Source: a virus. Taken from it: a stretch of DNA of 32,403 bases. The stretch spans positions 1-32,403 of IMG/VR virus record IMGVR_UViG_3300032236_000146, one strand, 5' to 3'. The translations under genes were made by a program, and so were the position numbers. The notes below the pieces were generated by a model. It saw only the letters and a program-made list of their open reading frames with translations. It was not told the origin of the DNA and searched no databases. Positions 12,426-23,038 of the stretch are shown piece by piece (within the stretch, counting starts at the first letter, position 1; every line of letters begins with the position of its first letter).

Positions 12426-13592
12426 CTACCAAACTGCCACCTTAAATTTAGGAGCAGTTAAATGAGTAAATACTGCATACCTACAAGCGTCCATTGCGTC
12501 ATCATTTGCCTTCACGGGTTCTTCTATTACATTGTCGTTTTTGTCCTTCTTCCATTTGTAGGACATAAATTCTCGCTTAAGGTTTTGGCTATTGTAATGA
12601 ATGTTTATAGGATATGATTTCATTTTAACAATCCCTGCCCATACATCTTTTTGAGCAGGTTTAATATTAAAACCTTGCCTGTAAAGTTCTTCGATTGATT
12701 TTGGTTCAGCAGCGTCTGCGTAAATTGTTGCTCTTGTTGGTATTTTTTCCTTTATTAATCGTGTAAGGTCGGCTAATGTTAATCCGCTTTCGTAAATAAT
12801 TTCTTCAAAATAGTTCTGCCCTTCGTGATGGGTTACTTTAATTAAAACTGCGGGGTGTACATATCCAAAGTCCAAACCATAAAATATATCTCCGTTAGGT
12901 GCTTCATCATATTGTTTCCATTGCGTGTAAATCAATTCTTTTGCTGCTCCTCTTTCGCCTAATCCGTAAACCTTCCACATAAAGTCATCGGGCAAATCCT
13001 TGTATTGCTCAATGTTTTTTATTTGACTTTCGGTAAGGTTGGATATATTGTTTAGATATGTTGAGTGTATTCTTTTATTTTTAGGCTCATCGGCCACCTC
13101 GTAAACCCAAGAAACAAAGTCGGCGGGGTTCCAATCCAAAAACGTTTGACCCGTTGTTCTCATTAACAATTGGTCGTACAATGTTTTTTTAATTAGATTG
13201 GCTTCGTTTATAAATAAAATATCCCTTGCAGGTCCACGTGCTTTGCCTTCATCTTCTAATCCAAACAATTCAATATAAGAACCATTGTCAAACGTAAATA
13301 TGTAATCCGAATAACTAAATTTTTTATCATCCCATAGCTGCCAATCTTCCATTATTTTTCTAAAATCCCTATAAACCCCTCTTTTAATATGCGGAAGCGA
13401 ATGAGATACTATTGAAATTCTAATTCTTTCAATCGATAAGGCAATCCAAACTAAAAGCTGAACTACCGAATAAGATTTGCTTGAACGGGTGCCACCTTCG
13501 TTGCAAATAATAGGATATCCTTCTTCGTATGCCTTTTTATTAGCATAGAATACAGGAGTTACTTTAATCTTTAATTGGTTCGCAATTTGCAT
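12426..13592 (-). CDS. terL: Terminase large subunit
   Basis: This 388-residue packaging motor and nuclease has Walker A at 33-40 (GGTRSSKS), Walker B DILFINEAN at 124-132 with catalytic Glu130, and a C-terminal RNase H-like nuclease with Asp241 (GLDFGYVHP), Asp293 (IYADAAEPKSIEEL) and an acidic end pair in NDDAMDACRYAV. The motif set is of the PBSX/Terminase_3 type. The start overlaps TerS by 29 bases; the chosen ATG leaves a normal N-terminus before Walker A. The packaging strategy (headful or cohesive ends) cannot be read from sequence alone. Confidence 0.95.
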   Translation of the reverse strand: MQIANQLKIKVTPVFYANKKAYEEGYPIICNEGGTRSSKSYSVVQLLVWIALSIERIRISIVSHSLPHIKRGVYRDFRKIMEDWQLWDDKKFSYSDYIFTFDNGSYIELFGLEDEGKARGPARDILFINEANLIKKTLYDQLLMRTTGQTFLDWNPADFVSWVYEVADEPKNKRIHSTYLNNISNLTESQIKNIEQYKDLPDDFMWKVYGLGERGAAKELIYTQWKQYDEAPNGDIFYGLDFGYVHPAVLIKVTHHEGQNYFEEIIYESGLTLADLTRLIKEKIPTRATIYADAAEPKSIEELYRQGFNIKPAQKDVWAGIVKMKSYPINIHYNSQNLKREFMSYKWKKDKNDNVIEEPVKANDDAMDACRYAVFTHLTAPKFKVAVW

Positions 13593-13911
13593 CAGGTTCT
13601 ATTACTATTTGAATGTTCCCTTGAATATTTGCATTAATATCGGTGGTTTGCTTTGATTTTCCTTCAAGCCTATCTAACAATTCTTGATACGCTCTAATAT
13701 CGCCTTTCATAGCCTTTGCTATTATTTTCATATCCAACTGCTCGGCAATAGTAAATTCTTCTATTTCGCCTGTTACTGGGTTTTTGATTGTAGTAACCAA
13801 TTCCAATAATTTCAATAATCTTGTTTTAGAATTTAACACGCCTTTGCCTCTGCCTTTTGGGTTTCTCACTTCTCCTTTTTGTGCAGGTATTAAATTTTGT
13901 TCGTTTGCCAT
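13564..13911 (-). CDS. Small terminase-like protein (DUF5681-type N-terminus)
   Basis: This 115-residue protein is encoded directly upstream of TerL. It opens with a basic Gly/Lys/Asn segment, GEVRNPKGRGKG, like DUF5681 proteins that precede terminases in many phages. A helical region with IAKAMKGDIRAYQELLDRLE follows. It probably binds DNA and directs TerL to the packaging start. Assignment rests on position and this motif. Confidence 0.72.
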   Translation of the reverse strand: MANEQNLIPAQKGEVRNPKGRGKGVLNSKTRLLKLLELVTTIKNPVTGEIEEFTIAEQLDMKIIAKAMKGDIRAYQELLDRLEGKSKQTTDINANIQGNIQIVIEPDANCEPIKD

Positions 13912-13944: not shown

Positions 13945-14754
13945 CTAATCTAAACCTTTGAATGCTTTTAATGGATAAAAAACTAATGAATTCCTGTAAC
14001 CGCCTTCTTTGGTAGGAACAATTGGCGTAACTCCGTGAACGTTTCTCCAAGCAGGATAAACTAACATTGAATTATCAGAACTGTCCATTGTGGCATTGTA
14101 ATCAGGTACGGTTGTGTTTCCTCCCGTAGCATTGTGTTTTTTTGCAATTATTACATTTACACAACCTTCTAAATTCCCTGCGTCCCTGTGAAACGCGGCG
14201 GCTATATTGTAATTTGAGATAGAACTTGTAAATAAATTTCCAAATCTCCATTTTTTAGGTATATTAGTTTCAATAATTTGTTTTTGTCTTTCGTAAATGT
14301 TTGGAGCAATTAATTTCATTAGTTTTTCGCTTTCTTCGCACAACATTAACATTGCTTTAACAAAAGTTCCCGCTGATTTTATATTGTGAACGCTTGAAAC
14401 GCTTGGATAAGGTCTTCTCATATGAGGTCTTGGCGGACAGCTTCCTAGAATTGCTGACATTTGTTGAACTAAATTGTCTTTTGCGTATTTTCCGTCTTCG
14501 GAATAACCTTTCATTAAATTGGAACTTCTTGTCATTACGCTTTTTGGAACGTTTTTGCTTCTAAATTCTTTATTTGCAACGTCCGATAATTTAGTTAATC
14601 TTTCCGAATGTTTGTTCATGTCCTTTATATAAAATCCTATCAATTCTCCGTTATCATAAAACAAAGAATCTTCAGTTACGTTTGGTTCGATTGTTCCGCA
14701 AACATCTCCAATTTGCACATTGTGAGAAACTTTAATTAAATCAATTCTTTTCAT
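13945..14754 (-). CDS. TET/JBP-like 2-oxoglutarate/Fe(II) dioxygenase (candidate DNA base hydroxylase)
   Basis: This is a 269-residue protein. The C-terminal third has the signature of the double-stranded beta-helix dioxygenase fold: FHRDAGN with Fe ligands His189 and Asp191, a Gly-Gly turn in ATGGNTTVPDYN, the third ligand His240 in VHGVTPIVP, and Arg254 in GGYRNSLVFYPL, placed to bind 2-oxoglutarate. The combination with the three genes before it matches phage TET/JBP clusters known from comparative genomics, in which thymine or 5-methylcytosine in DNA is oxidised. No cytosine methylase is present, so thymine to 5-hydroxymethyluracil is the likelier reaction. Its start overlaps the kinase by 14 bases. 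The substrate is inferred; the fold is fairly clear. Confidence 0.75.
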   Translation of the reverse strand: MKRIDLIKVSHNVQIGDVCGTIEPNVTEDSLFYDNGELIGFYIKDMNKHSERLTKLSDVANKEFRSKNVPKSVMTRSSNLMKGYSEDGKYAKDNLVQQMSAILGSCPPRPHMRRPYPSVSSVHNIKSAGTFVKAMLMLCEESEKLMKLIAPNIYERQKQIIETNIPKKWRFGNLFTSSISNYNIAAAFHRDAGNLEGCVNVIIAKKHNATGGNTTVPDYNATMDSSDNSMLVYPAWRNVHGVTPIVPTKEGGYRNSLVFYPLKAFKGLD

Positions 14755-15223
14755 ATATTAGTTTTTTAATTAATTCTAAACAATCTTGACTTGTTTTTTC
14801 TTTATAATGAGCGTTTATATTTTGAACTCTTGTTTCTATTCTTTTCAAATGTTGTTCCGATTGTTTTGAATTTCTTTTTAATCTGCCTTGTTCGCCGTTG
14901 TCTGTTATTCTAATTGTAATTGGATTAAAAACATTTATAAATTTTGAATTGCTAAACCTGTCACCTTCGCAAATTACATTAAAATTGTGTTTTTCTTGTA
15001 TTTTTCTAAATCCTTCAAAATCTTGTGCAACCGCCATACTTAATTTGTCGCTTCCTTCAAATATTTCTCCGTTGTAAATTCCCAACACTACAATTTTGTT
15101 GTTTAATACAAAATGTATTTTTTCATATTTAGCTTTTTGTGTTAAATTAAATTCTTTTATTAATTCTTTAACAACCCAAGTTTTTCCTGAACCGCAGTTT
15201 CCTGTTATTAAAATAGTTTTCAC
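14741..15223 (-). CDS. P-loop kinase (candidate 5-hydroxymethyluracil DNA kinase)
   Basis: This 160-residue small P-loop kinase has Walker A GNCGSGKT at 8-15. A conserved-looking FEGSDKLSMAV segment (55-65) and VICEGDRFSN (83-92) could bind substrate and Mg. The C-terminus is a basic helix region with RLKRNSKQSEQHLKRIETR, possibly DNA-contacting. It starts with GTG, which overlaps the preceding gene's TGA as GTGA, so translation is coupled. In known phage pathways a kinase of this type phosphorylates hydroxymethyluracil in DNA to make a leaving group for the next enzyme. Assignment as a DNA base kinase depends on the neighbours. Confidence 0.7.
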   Translation of the reverse strand: MKTILITGNCGSGKTWVVKELIKEFNLTQKAKYEKIHFVLNNKIVVLGIYNGEIFEGSDKLSMAVAQDFEGFRKIQEKHNFNVICEGDRFSNSKFINVFNPITIRITDNGEQGRLKRNSKQSEQHLKRIETRVQNINAHYKEKTSQDCLELIKKLIYEKN

Positions 15224-15942
15224 GGCAATAAATTATGATATTGAATTAATCTTGAATCTTCTTTTATTTTTCTAATTTTTTTTAAATCATCGTTAGGTTT
15301 GTATTTGTTGTGTTTGTAACTATGATATTTGCACAAAAGAGTTTCTAATTCAAGCAAATTGTTGGGATTAAAAACATTGTTTGTAATTGAATTTTTGACT
15401 TGATTTTTAGCTTCCTGAAGATGTTTTTTATATAAAAAAATATTGTTTTTGTATATTGATGTGTCTTCTTTTTCGCCGTTTAACAACAATAATCCTTTTA
15501 AAGGATATTCGTAAGCGTTTAAAAAAGTTTGGTCTTTAAAAATCATTTTTACGTCAAAAACTTTGTCCAAAATGTCGGCTGCTTTCCAACTTGCCCAATT
15601 TCCCATTCCTTTTATTTTCGTAAAATTATCTTTGAATGTTAAATAATCTATTCCGTGAAATTTTTTTAATTTGTCTAAAGTTAAAGGACTTAAAATTTTT
15701 TCCCAAATTGAAAAATAAGGTTTGCTTTTTTGTCTTTCGTTTCCAAATTTGATTTGTTCTTTGGTAATAAACCCATCAGTGTACAATAATTCGCTTGACA
15801 AATTGTAAATAAGGAGCTTTTTTTTAAACAATTCAAATGTTTTAAATTCTCCGTATTTTTTTTTATAATTGATTAAAAAAACATAATCGGGGTCAATGTC
15901 GTATGTTTTAATTATTTCGTTTGAGAACTGCTCAAAATTCAT
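15220..15942 (-). CDS. DNA-glycosylase-like transferase (aGPT-PPlase-like) for hypermodified thymine
   Basis: This 240-residue, Lys/Asn/Phe-rich protein has a helix-hairpin-helix-like segment KGMGNWASWKAADIL at 111-125. This resembles alpha-glutamyl/putrescinyl-thymine pyrophosphorylase families, which derive from HhH DNA glycosylases. A C-terminal ETLLCKYHSYK segment (200-210) also fits that family. In known phages such enzymes displace a phosphate on hydroxymethyluracil with an amino acid or amine while the base stays in DNA. Here it overlaps ParB by 4 bases upstream and the kinase by 4 bases downstream. The family call is by pattern and context; the attached group cannot be predicted. Confidence 0.68.
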   Translation of the reverse strand: MNFEQFSNEIIKTYDIDPDYVFLINYKKKYGEFKTFELFKKKLLIYNLSSELLYTDGFITKEQIKFGNERQKSKPYFSIWEKILSPLTLDKLKKFHGIDYLTFKDNFTKIKGMGNWASWKAADILDKVFDVKMIFKDQTFLNAYEYPLKGLLLLNGEKEDTSIYKNNIFLYKKHLQEAKNQVKNSITNNVFNPNNLLELETLLCKYHSYKHNKYKPNDDLKKIRKIKEDSRLIQYHNLLP

Positions 15943-16508
15943 AATTTGCTTTTTTCTTCTTTAAGATGTTCTAAAAGCATCATACCAACGTTTGCTCCTC
16001 TTTCTCTCCACCATTTAATTATTTCAAATGCTTCTTCGTAATATTCTAAATCGTATTCTATTTGAACGGCTTTTCTTACGTTTGAATTCATATCAGAAAT
16101 TTTGTCGGACATGTCTTCTTCGTCTAAAATGCTGTAATCAATTTCTTTTTCTGAACCGAAAAACGGCAAATCCAAACCCCATTCACCTATTTCTTCTGTA
16201 TCAAATTCGTTTGCTAACATATCCCAATCCCATTCTCCAAATCCTACGTTGTCTTTAACAATAAATTCTTTCTTTTGTTCTTCGGTTAGGTCTTTAGCTT
16301 GTTTTACGGGAACATCTTTTAATCCTGCTTCAATACAAGCCTTTAACCTCATGTTGCCCCCTAATACGACATTGTTTTCGTCTATAACAATAGGTCTCAA
16401 TTCAAGCATTTGAGGAAATTCCTGAATAGATTTTACAAGTTGTTTAAACTTGACGTCTTTAATAACTCTGGGATTGTTTGGGTTGGGTTTAATTTCTGTT
16501 ATTTTCAT
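15939..16508 (-). CDS. ParB-like nuclease/DNA-binding protein of the modification cluster
   Basis: This is a 189-residue protein. Residues 1-75 are a ParB/sulfiredoxin-fold domain (ITEIKPNPNNPRVIKD, then LRPIVIDENNVVLGGNMRLK with the GGNMR box at 50-54). A second segment, KDNVGFGEWDWDML, is typical of phage ParB proteins that travel with DNA-modifying enzymes. The acidic C-terminus is family-specific. There is no ParA partner, so plasmid-style partitioning is unlikely; site selection or nicking linked to modification or packaging is more plausible. It heads the four-gene overlapping set. Confidence 0.8.
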   Translation of the reverse strand: MKITEIKPNPNNPRVIKDVKFKQLVKSIQEFPQMLELRPIVIDENNVVLGGNMRLKACIEAGLKDVPVKQAKDLTEEQKKEFIVKDNVGFGEWDWDMLANEFDTEEIGEWGLDLPFFGSEKEIDYSILDEEDMSDKISDMNSNVRKAVQIEYDLEYYEEAFEIIKWWRERGANVGMMLLEHLKEEKSKL

Positions 16509-16637: not shown

Positions 16638-17009
16638 TTATTTATATTTTTCTATTATTTCTTCTAACTCTTGTCTGCTCCATTTTTTCTTTAATCTTGC
16701 TTGACTTTCTAATTGTAAAACCATTCCTTCGCCTATCTTGTCTATAAGGTTTCTACGATAACCTATAAGATGGAACTGGTCAAAACCATTACAACCCTTG
16801 CACTCTCCGTTTACGTTATATTCATCAAATCTTAAAGCTGACCCATTTTTTACTGGAACATAATGCCCAGCATCCATTTGCTCGTGGCTTTTTACTTGAC
16901 CGCAAGATATGCAAGTAAAATAACCATCAATACAATCTCTGTATCTTATATATCGGTTAAAGATATGTTGAGCTTTAGCCGTTAATTTAGGAAGGGTTAA
17001 TGTTGCCAT
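16638..17009 (-). CDS. ninG: NinG/Rap-like recombination protein with zinc ribbon
   Basis: This 123-residue protein resembles lambda NinG (Rap), a structure-specific endonuclease that resolves recombination intermediates in the Red pathway. The zinc cysteines are C33, C36, C70 and C73; between them lies DAGHYVPVKNGSALRFDEYN, an HNH-like arrangement typical of NinG. The C-terminal helix (YRRNLIDKIGEGMVLQLE) also fits. Together with the ERF annealing protein it implies a phage-encoded annealing recombination system. A TAATTTTG box lies 4 bases before the ATG. Confidence 0.85.
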   Translation of the reverse strand: MATLTLPKLTAKAQHIFNRYIRYRDCIDGYFTCISCGQVKSHEQMDAGHYVPVKNGSALRFDEYNVNGECKGCNGFDQFHLIGYRRNLIDKIGEGMVLQLESQARLKKKWSRQELEEIIEKYK

Positions 17010-17572: not shown

Positions 17573-17803
17573 TTATTTGTTTTTATTATATTTTTCGTTA
17601 AAGTATTGTTCTGCTTCATCAAGTAAAATATCAGTTCCTGTTTTACTGCAATCAATTTTGTGCATTTGCATAGCAAAATCAATCATCTGCTTTTTTTCTC
17701 TTTCAATCATATCTCTTTTAAATATCTCCCAATAAGCAGAGTCAGGACTTAAATTTTGATTGCTCTCAATACTTTCAAAGACTTCTTGAATTAGTGATTT
17801 CAT
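17573..17803 (-). CDS. Small early protein (76 aa), paralogue-like to the gene at 22808-23038
   Basis: This 76-residue helical, acidic protein resembles the protein at 22808-23038 in length and layout: an N-terminal helix, then EKKQMIDFAMQMHKIDCS against EKEQIIEAYISDRIPCS, then an acidic ...EAEQYFNEKY against ...DAEDYYFSTY, and an Asn/Lys end. Similar small proteins are common in Bacteroidota phages, function unknown. It starts at copy 2 of the junction repeat. Confidence 0.7.
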   Translation of the reverse strand: MKSLIQEVFESIESNQNLSPDSAYWEIFKRDMIEREKKQMIDFAMQMHKIDCSKTGTDILLDEAEQYFNEKYNKNK

Positions 17804-17821
17804 AGGTTATTTGTTTTGGTT
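17801..17821 (-). repeat. Junction repeat copy 2
   Basis: Identical to copies 1 and 3. It contains the last codons (Asn-Gln-Asn-Lys, stop) of the 79-residue gene at 17807-18046 and the ATG of the 76-residue gene. Confidence 0.8.
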
Positions 17822-18046
17822 ATTAAAATTCCAATTATAAAATTTATGGTTAAGCCTAACATATTCTACATCTTTATTTTGTATAAAATTATCATAGTAT
17901 TTACCATTACCTTCTTTTTTCATACAATTCCATAAACCTGCATTTGGATAACAAAATTCAACTACATCCCCATTTTTTAATTTAATATCTTGTACCTTTT
18001 TGCAATAATTCCCATCATATTTTTGCCATTCATAAGTTAGTTCCAT
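17807..18046 (-). CDS. Small early protein (79 aa), unknown
   Basis: This 79-residue protein opens MELTYEWQKYDGNYCKKVQD, with beta-strand-like segments DVVEFCYPNAGLW and VEYVRLNHKFYNW. It looks like a small beta-barrel or SH3-like fold, but I recognise no family. It ends NNQNK, encoded by the junction repeat, and starts at the third repeat copy. Confidence 0.6.
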   Translation of the reverse strand: MELTYEWQKYDGNYCKKVQDIKLKNGDVVEFCYPNAGLWNCMKKEGNGKYYDNFIQNKDVEYVRLNHKFYNWNFNNQNK

Positions 18047-18064
18047 AGGTTATTTGTTTTGGTT
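18044..18064 (-). repeat. Junction repeat copy 3
   Basis: Identical to copies 1 and 2. It encodes the NQNK-stop end of the 59-residue ORF and the ATG of the 79-residue gene. Confidence 0.8.
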
Positions 18065-18229
18065 TAAAAGTTCTTTATCTTGATTTTGACCTTTTTTTAA
18101 TCTTATCATTTCAATTGATACATCAAACAATGTCATATTGGGTTTATAGTTTTTATACTCTTTATTTAAAACTATTAATGTTATTGAACTTGGATAAAAC
18201 ATACCTAATTCTTGCATTGCTGTTTTCAT
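18050..18229 (-). CDS. Small ORF, 59 aa, MKTAMQEL family
   Basis: It begins MKTAMQELGMFYPSSITLIV and ends LLNQNK. The first 24 bases (MKTAMQEL) are identical to the start of the gene at 22808-23038 and the end matches the junction repeat. The body is different, as if a new core had been placed between two conserved ends. Its ATG overlaps the preceding ORF's stop as ATGA. Confidence 0.6.
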   Translation of the reverse strand: MKTAMQELGMFYPSSITLIVLNKEYKNYKPNMTLFDVSIEMIRLKKGQNQDKELLNQNK

Positions 18230-18369
18230 AATTTGTTTATTTTATATTTATTGCATTTAATACATTTTAAAATTCTCCCAAATGTAAAAATTCCATTTAT
18301 TCTAATAGAATCTTTATAATTATGATTGCAAAAAAATTGTTGTAATTGTTTATGTATTTTCGTTTTCAT
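18226..18369 (-). CDS. Small ORF, 47 aa, Cys/His-containing
   Basis: It begins MKTKIHKQLQQFFCNHNYKD and contains a later CIKCNK pair. The CNH...CxxC arrangement could bind one zinc ion. It is strongly basic. It starts in a junction-repeat variant after the HTH gene and couples to the 59-residue ORF by ATGA. Function unknown. Confidence 0.55.
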   Translation of the reverse strand: MKTKIHKQLQQFFCNHNYKDSIRINGIFTFGRILKCIKCNKYKINKL

Positions 18370-18386
18370 ACTTATTTGTTTTGGTT
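18367..18386 (-). repeat. Junction repeat variant
   Basis: It has the same A-rich core (AACCAAAACAAATAA) but a TAAGTATG-type end instead of TAACCTATG, encodes YNQNK-stop of the HTH gene and leads into the 47-residue ORF. It shows the core is conserved while the distance to ATG varies slightly. Confidence 0.6.
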
Positions 18387-18611
18387 ATAATATCTCATCC
18401 CTAATCCATGTTTTTGAGCTATTCGATATATATGCCTTTCGCTTATGCCTAACTTTTTAGATATTTCTTTTACGTTTGGGTAATTTACTTTATCATACCA
18501 AGTCTTAGCAACTAGATTAGCATAAATATTATTTAAGTTTAAATCTTCCCCATTATATTCTATTTGTGGGTACTTTTTGCAAATATGCTGGTAGAATTCT
18601 TCTTGTTTCAT
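18372..18611 (-). CDS. HTH protein (79 aa), putative regulator
   Basis: This is a 79-residue protein with a helix-turn-helix at 47-69 (VKEISKKLGISERHIYRIAQ), similar to HTH segments of phage regulators and resolvase-type DNA-binding domains. The N-terminal 40 residues are helical. It starts just after a hairpin with a short T-run and heads the chain of small genes, so it may control that block. It ends YNQNK, encoded by the junction repeat. Confidence 0.7.
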   Translation of the reverse strand: MKQEEFYQHICKKYPQIEYNGEDLNLNNIYANLVAKTWYDKVNYPNVKEISKKLGISERHIYRIAQKHGLGMRYYNQNK

Positions 18612-22807: not shown

Positions 22808-23038
22808 TTATTTGTTTTGATTAAGTTCAGTAATATTTATTTTTTCAATTTTATAAGTAGAAAAATAATAATCCTCTGCATCTTGTTCTGAACAAGGAAT
22901 TCTATCACTTATATAAGCCTCTATTATCTGCTCTTTTTCTTTAAATGTTAGTTCTTTCAGTTTTAATAATAATTCTTTGTTGAATACTATTGGGTTCATT
23001 TCAATATATTCAATTAATTCTTGCATTGCTGTTTTCAT
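22808..23038 (-). CDS. Small early protein (76 aa), MKTAMQEL family
   Basis: It begins MKTAMQELIEYIEMNPIVFN and ends ELNQNK. The first 24 bases are identical to the start of the ORF at 18050-18229, and layout matches the protein at 17573-17803. The core has KEKEQIIEAYISDRIPCSEQ and an acidic aromatic stretch DAEDYYFSTY. Family members recur in Bacteroidota phages; role unknown. Confidence 0.7.
   Translation of the reverse strand: MKTAMQELIEYIEMNPIVFNKELLLKLKELTFKEKEQIIEAYISDRIPCSEQDAEDYYFSTYKIEKINITELNQNK

Follow-up and report, generated by a model that had tools for sequence, protein, structure and literature searches.

Four overlapping genes on the minus strand of the window, by which we mean the whole 32,403-nucleotide stretch of viral DNA analysed here (IMG/VR record IMGVR_UViG_3300032236_000146), probably form an operon for the post-replicative hypermodification of thymine, in which TET oxidation, phosphorylation and amino acid transfer would follow one another; the catalytic steps are predicted from protein families and modelled folds. 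The first cassette gene encodes a ParB-like protein of 189 amino acids (15939..16508). It is followed by the genes for a putative amino acid:DNA transferase (ADDT/PUGT-like) of 240 amino acids (15220..15942), a P-loop kinase of 160 amino acids with a GTG start (14741..15223) and a TET/JBP 2-oxoglutarate/Fe(II) dioxygenase of 269 amino acids (13945..14754). According to the ORF calls, the ParB and transferase genes overlap by 4 bases, the transferase and kinase genes by 4 bases and the kinase and TET genes by 14 bases. The TET stop lies 33 bases before the start of a small terminase-like (TerS-like) gene (13564..13911, minus strand; DUF5681, PF18932, E 1e-9), which precedes the gene for the large terminase subunit (TerL; 12426..13592, minus strand; Terminase_3 E 1.3e-12, phrog_2 E 4e-40). 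Both terminase genes are context and lie outside the pathway. The first-pass annotation had described four overlapping genes right before the terminase, and the ORF coordinates agree. It had also spoken of a 32-kb phage; the length holds for the record (32.4 kb), although IMG/VR classes the record as linear and it may not be the whole genome.

In the proposed pathway, the TET/JBP protein would oxidise thymine within the phage DNA at its methyl group to give 5-hydroxymethyluracil, the P-loop kinase would phosphorylate the hydroxyl to give 5-phosphomethyl-dU, and the ADDT/PUGT-like transferase would let an amino acid displace the phosphate, so that the methyl carbon of thymine would end up bearing an amino acid linked through nitrogen. 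The amino acid is glycine in the closest relative that has been characterised. The cassette contains neither an FAD oxidoreductase nor an acetyltransferase, so the pathway probably ends at the amino acid. DNA modified in this way would probably protect the phage from the restriction enzymes of its host. The order of oxidation, phosphorylation and replacement by an amine or amino acid had been proposed earlier from the sequence; it fits the observation that the substrate of the matched glycinyltransferase is the expected kinase product, whereas thymine as the target is a deduction.

The TET/JBP protein matched Tet_JBP (PF12851) with E 2.7e-10 and 40.1 bits, over the curated cut-off of 34.9, confirming the earlier call of a TET/JBP-like dioxygenase. 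H189, D191, H240 and R254 were invariant in an alignment of 11 relatives; from family knowledge, we take the first three to be the HxD...H iron ligands and R254 to be the 2-oxoglutarate arginine. The TET profile had no match at E <= 1 among PDB sequences. Phage TET/JBP proteins are annotated as queuine tRNA-ribosyltransferase in phrog_6059 and in RefSeq (e.g. NC_020857 CPWG_00022). The ParB-like protein, also named as such in the first-pass annotation, matched the ParB-like phage family phrog_620 with E 6e-29, though its match to ParB_N (PF02195; E 3.3e-5) was slightly below the Pfam cut-off. The ParB gene adjoins TET in nearly all relatives, whichever decorating genes are present. The protein probably has an accessory role, either in binding DNA or as an NTP switch, and may act in DNA loading or targeting.

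The thymine hypermodifications named in PMC6449724 begin from 5hmdU; where its origin has been traced, a hydroxymethylase of the phage produces it at the nucleotide level (PMC5977210). The dUMP-hydroxymethylase-based systems of PaMx11, M6 and ViI encode a thymidylate-synthase-like hydroxymethylase, whereas none was found in the window. The thymidylate-synthase-like family PF00303 was absent from the window, as judged on this linear and possibly incomplete 32.4-kb record, and from 70 of 70 other TET-bearing IMG/VR records searched; it was found in the PaMx11 control. Because of this absence from the window and the 70 records, TET becomes the candidate enzyme for introducing the hydroxyl, and it is predicted to hydroxylate thymine in DNA. 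Here the pathway appears to start from thymine that is already part of the DNA and is oxidised there by an enzyme related to human TET and trypanosome JBP, with three enzymes in all. If the target is thymine, cassettes of this type would provide a compact set of enzymes with which amino acids could be attached to thymine after the DNA has been made.

The kinase carries a Walker A motif (GNCGSGKT) at residues 8-15. Its AF2 model (pLDDT 87.5) had a nucleotide-monophosphate-kinase fold, and the viral structural matches of the model included the annotated 5-hmdU DNA kinases of PhiW-14 and SP10. Among PHROGs the protein matched phrog_800 with E 3.2e-7, which together with the fold bears out its earlier description as a P-loop kinase; matches in Pfam were weak P-loop matches only, and the kinase profile found generic P-loop matches only among PDB sequences. 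The same PHROG also takes in PaMx11 gp49 (E 5e-30), the kinases of 17 of 18 relatives and the kinases of TET-bearing actinophages. The window protein is predicted to be a 5-hydroxymethyl-dU DNA kinase. Two findings count against the pathway at this step. The kinase falls short of the curated models for 5-hmdU kinase (PF18748) and Ploopntkinase3 (PF18751), neither of which was reported for it at E up to 1; PaMx11 gp49 also scores below the PF18748 cut-off. Moreover, the window lacks the HMUDK_hel protein that goes with the kinase gene in PaMx11: HMUDK_hel (PF18723) was not found above the cut-off in the window or in any of 29 TET-linked records, with a positive PaMx11 control. As for the refutation named beforehand, at least two of the four proteins without a profile match, the TET/JBP, ADDT and ParB proteins all gave matches and the kinase fitted by fold and family. 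The label 'terminase small subunit' is carried by phrog_800 and inherited by several GenBank records, and the kinase of Mycobacterium phage LilMcDreamy is so labelled in its record; this label looks wrong since phrog_800 holds PaMx11 gp49 and kinases beside TET in actinophages. Further phrog_800 kinases were seen at L209 14218-14787 and L210 3761-4333.

The transferase matched ADDT (PF18724) with E 9.2e-10 and 39.1 bits, compared to a cut-off of 26.2, and its sequence profile matched 8z2m (E 9e-12) and 25qc (E 1.6e-17). Its AlphaFold (AF2) model (pLDDT 89.8) had one strong PDB match, the 5-phosphomethyl-dU glycinyltransferase gp46/PUGT of PaMx11 (8z2n), with a Foldseek E of 5.8e-6; the two aligned over 230 of 240 residues with Z 21.0 and rmsd 2.7 A (VIA). 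The next-best structures were HhH DNA glycosylases, with Z 6 to 7.6. The earlier reading of this protein as aGPT-PPlase-like and derived from an HhH glycosylase was right about the HhH origin, and the family is more precisely amino acid:DNA transferase. Residues invariant among 19 TET-linked transferases included D15, D17, P18, R70, G114, E200, T201, L203 and C204, and most of the invariant residues have equivalents in 8z2m and 25qc. A tblastn search with the window transferase found no match in cultured phages, though profile relatives occur there, which points to high divergence. By analogy with these relatives, whose activity on 5-phosphomethyl-dU is taken from the 8z2m/8z2n entry titles, the window transferase is predicted to transfer an amino acid onto 5-phosphomethyl-dU.

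The relation of this fold to HhH DNA glycosylases also allows another reading, in which the protein acts as a glycosylase or pyrophosphorylase and, instead of adding an amino acid, takes out or edits modified bases, for instance in an attack on host DNA. Such a role is improbable, since the glycinyltransferase is by far the better structural match and the ADDT score exceeds its cut-off; the conserved pairing with the kinase also suits transfer onto a base that carries a phosphate. At 240 amino acids, compared to about 290, the transferase is short, and it is divergent, as might be expected if it or the kinase were a decayed copy and the DNA bore only 5hmU or its phosphate. However, the window transferase keeps every residue that is invariant in its family, the frames are intact, the predicted fold is complete, and other phages have intact members of the same subclade, which in a window-first alignment are 62%, 57% and about 36% identical to it, so that a partial pathway of this kind is very improbable.

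The remaining alternative to thymine modification concerns the base itself: TET could oxidise 5-methylcytosine made by a host methylase to 5hmC, which the kinase and transferase would then decorate. Burke et al. 2021 are said to have described phage TETs acting on 5mC. In the IMG/VR loci, glycosyltransferases like the TET-associated ones (TAGT-like) stand beside TETs up to 89.8% identical to those of kinase and transferase cassettes, and a C5-cytosine methylase is encoded by some such phages (L035-L037). Were these TETs to have one common specificity, either the TAGT-like enzymes would use 5hmU here or the kinase and transferase would use 5hmC. In contrast, the marks of a TET-TAGT cytosine system looked for in the window were not seen: no C5-cytosine methylase (PF00145) was found in the record, and the cassette genes beside TET matched no TAGT. 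Among kinase and transferase records longer than 20 kb, only 3 of 32 had a C5 methylase above the cut-off, compared to 4 of 19 other records, a difference between module types that was not significant (p 0.40). The cytosine route is unlikely, and by analogy thymine is the more likely target, since 5hmdU or its phosphate is the substrate of those kinase and transferase relatives that have been characterised.

The kind of system predicted here is already known from Tonitrus and cultured actinophages, and the window is a new member of it, from a distant lineage and with a short set of three enzymes. PMC6449724 traces the prediction of gene clusters of this sort by comparative genomics back to Iyer et al. 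2013. The authors of the Rhodococcus phage Tonitrus genome annotated its genes 1-7 as a thymine hypermodification system (PMC11955845; PP978825). As in the window, ParB-like, TET-like, aGPT-PPlase2/ADDT and phrog_800 kinase genes form one cluster; in contrast to the window, this 58-kb actinophage has another gene order, extra small genes and TON8 after the kinase, its transferase is about 23-24% identical to that of the window, and its function is likewise a prediction, made by annotation. In the cultured phages Gordonia phage CloverMinnie and LilMcDreamy, genes for ParB, a TET/JBP relative, ADDT and kinase are adjacent and precede the terminase, as in the window, whereas the TETs are only about 28% identical to that of the window and the cassettes hold an extra gene, Asp/Asn hydroxylase-like in LilMcDreamy and NAD-binding-like in CloverMinnie. 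These phages make the question testable now. The first-pass annotation had judged the route unusually compact; this did not hold, given that the same families are annotated in Tonitrus and grouped in actinophages, and that related cassettes occur in many environmental contigs.

Other phages share parts of the arrangement. In Pseudomonas phage PaMx11 (gp46-gp51), the transferase fold (8z2n/8z2m) and the kinase family phrog_800 are those of the window, whereas a thymidylate-synthase-like gene stands in place of TET beside the same transferase and kinase classes, and an FAD oxidoreductase, an acetyltransferase and HMUDK_hel are present that are all absent from the window cassette. In pelagiphages, too, a related aGPT-PPlase is accompanied by thymidylate synthase and not by TET (PMC9599517). 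Cyanophage MED4-117 has a TET 48.9% identical to that of the window over its full length, a ParB-like gene upstream and terminase genes downstream, whereas an FkbM methyltransferase replaces the kinase and transferase.

Approximately 200 IMG/VR loci were compared. The TET scans gave 50 loci; with an alignment as the query they matched at least 585 stretches, and 80 of these were retained. The transferase scans gave 12 loci and then 256, of which 80 were kept. Profiles built here were run over all loci. Of the 147 distinct loci with a TET, 77 carried a transferase that was not truncated, and every one of these also had a kinase beside TET (two partial loci being judged from contig ends). Since the loci were fetched by TET or TET-linked transferase queries, the linkage is shown for this family and not for ADDTs at large. 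The co-occurrence of TET, kinase and transferase is not due to chance. The ParB-TET frame was constant across loci, and the genes beside TET varied: an FkbM methyltransferase, kinase and ADDT, TAGT-like glycosyltransferases (one above the cut-off, E 3.9e-17), a protein of 301-306 amino acids with no Pfam match, or nothing. The kinase and ADDT cassettes occurred with or without a glutamine-amidotransferase-like protein, a GNAT acetyltransferase or an FAD/DAO oxidoreductase.

The loci L004/L005, L058, L016 and L012 have the ParB-TET-terminase frame of the window, and their decorating genes differ and are exchanged at gene boundaries. Between the window and L004, DNA identity was 82.7% in ParB, homology ended at the end of ParB, and it resumed at the start of the kinase with 77.6% to beyond TerL; between ParB and kinase the window has its ADDT, and L004 has a GATase and a different ADDT. 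Between the window and L058, ParB and ADDT continue together, followed by a kinase of another family and then TET homology again. L012 and L016 were 89% identical in ParB and 91% from TET into TerL (TETs 96.5% identical), and the slot between ParB and TET holds an FkbM gene in L012 and a four-gene kinase and ADDT module in L016. The TET tree was a quick one with many unsupported forks and was used only to place L016 within the FkbM clade (SH-aLRT 96 to 99) and to pair the window with L004 (98). Counting starred branches only, kinase and ADDT changed at least 6 times on this tree.

In the simplest reading, several decorating modules can all work on one and the same TET product. We propose tentatively that, in a large aquatic phage family, the one hydroxymethylated base made by TET/JBP (probably 5hmU) may be a hub around which whole decorating modules are exchanged at gene boundaries, these being the kinase with the amino acid transferase, the FkbM methyltransferase or glycosyltransferases. 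If so, thymine would be modified in different ways in nearly identical phages, with methoxymethyl-uracil and a phage counterpart of base J among the products. If the target is thymine, the exchange of modules would also reveal how a phage can alter its DNA disguise and leave the rest of its genome in place. No report of module swapping in TET phages was found in a literature search of limited coverage and, as far as that search shows, the module-exchange context of the cassette is what is new here.

Several further features of the modules were observed. A GATase_6/GATase_7-like protein goes with ADDT_2 in nearly all cassettes (e.g. L004 600-1184, L023 3536-4135 and L167 1738-2352) and is absent with the ADDT_1 subclade of the window. 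A lone FkbM-type methyltransferase lies between ParB and TET in L002 (5303-6004), L012 (4316-5014) and about 30 further loci; its presence alone beside TET suggests O-methylation of the hydroxymethyl base. An FAD/DAO-like oxidoreductase lies between transferase and kinase in L057 (5705-6493) and L059 (2610-3449), both with the transferase subclade of the window, and echoes PaMx11 gp47. The protein of 301-306 amino acids between ParB and TET (L107 4099-5004, L020 4109-5014) looked GT-B glycosyltransferase-like by eye.

By its capsid, the window phage is related to Flavobacterium phage 11b and Cellulophaga phage phi10:1, which makes a Flavobacterium-like Bacteroidota bacterium its probable host. 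A scan of GTDB genomes with the TET alignment gave 43 pattern matches and no relatives, and hence no prophage or host link. A gene for a NinG/Rap-like recombination endonuclease lies just upstream of the cassette (window 16638-17009). Several small adjoining genes (window 17573-18611 and 22808-23038) finish with the same codons (..CAAAACAAATAA, NQNK tail) immediately ahead of the following start codon, which may represent a common element for initiation or regulation.
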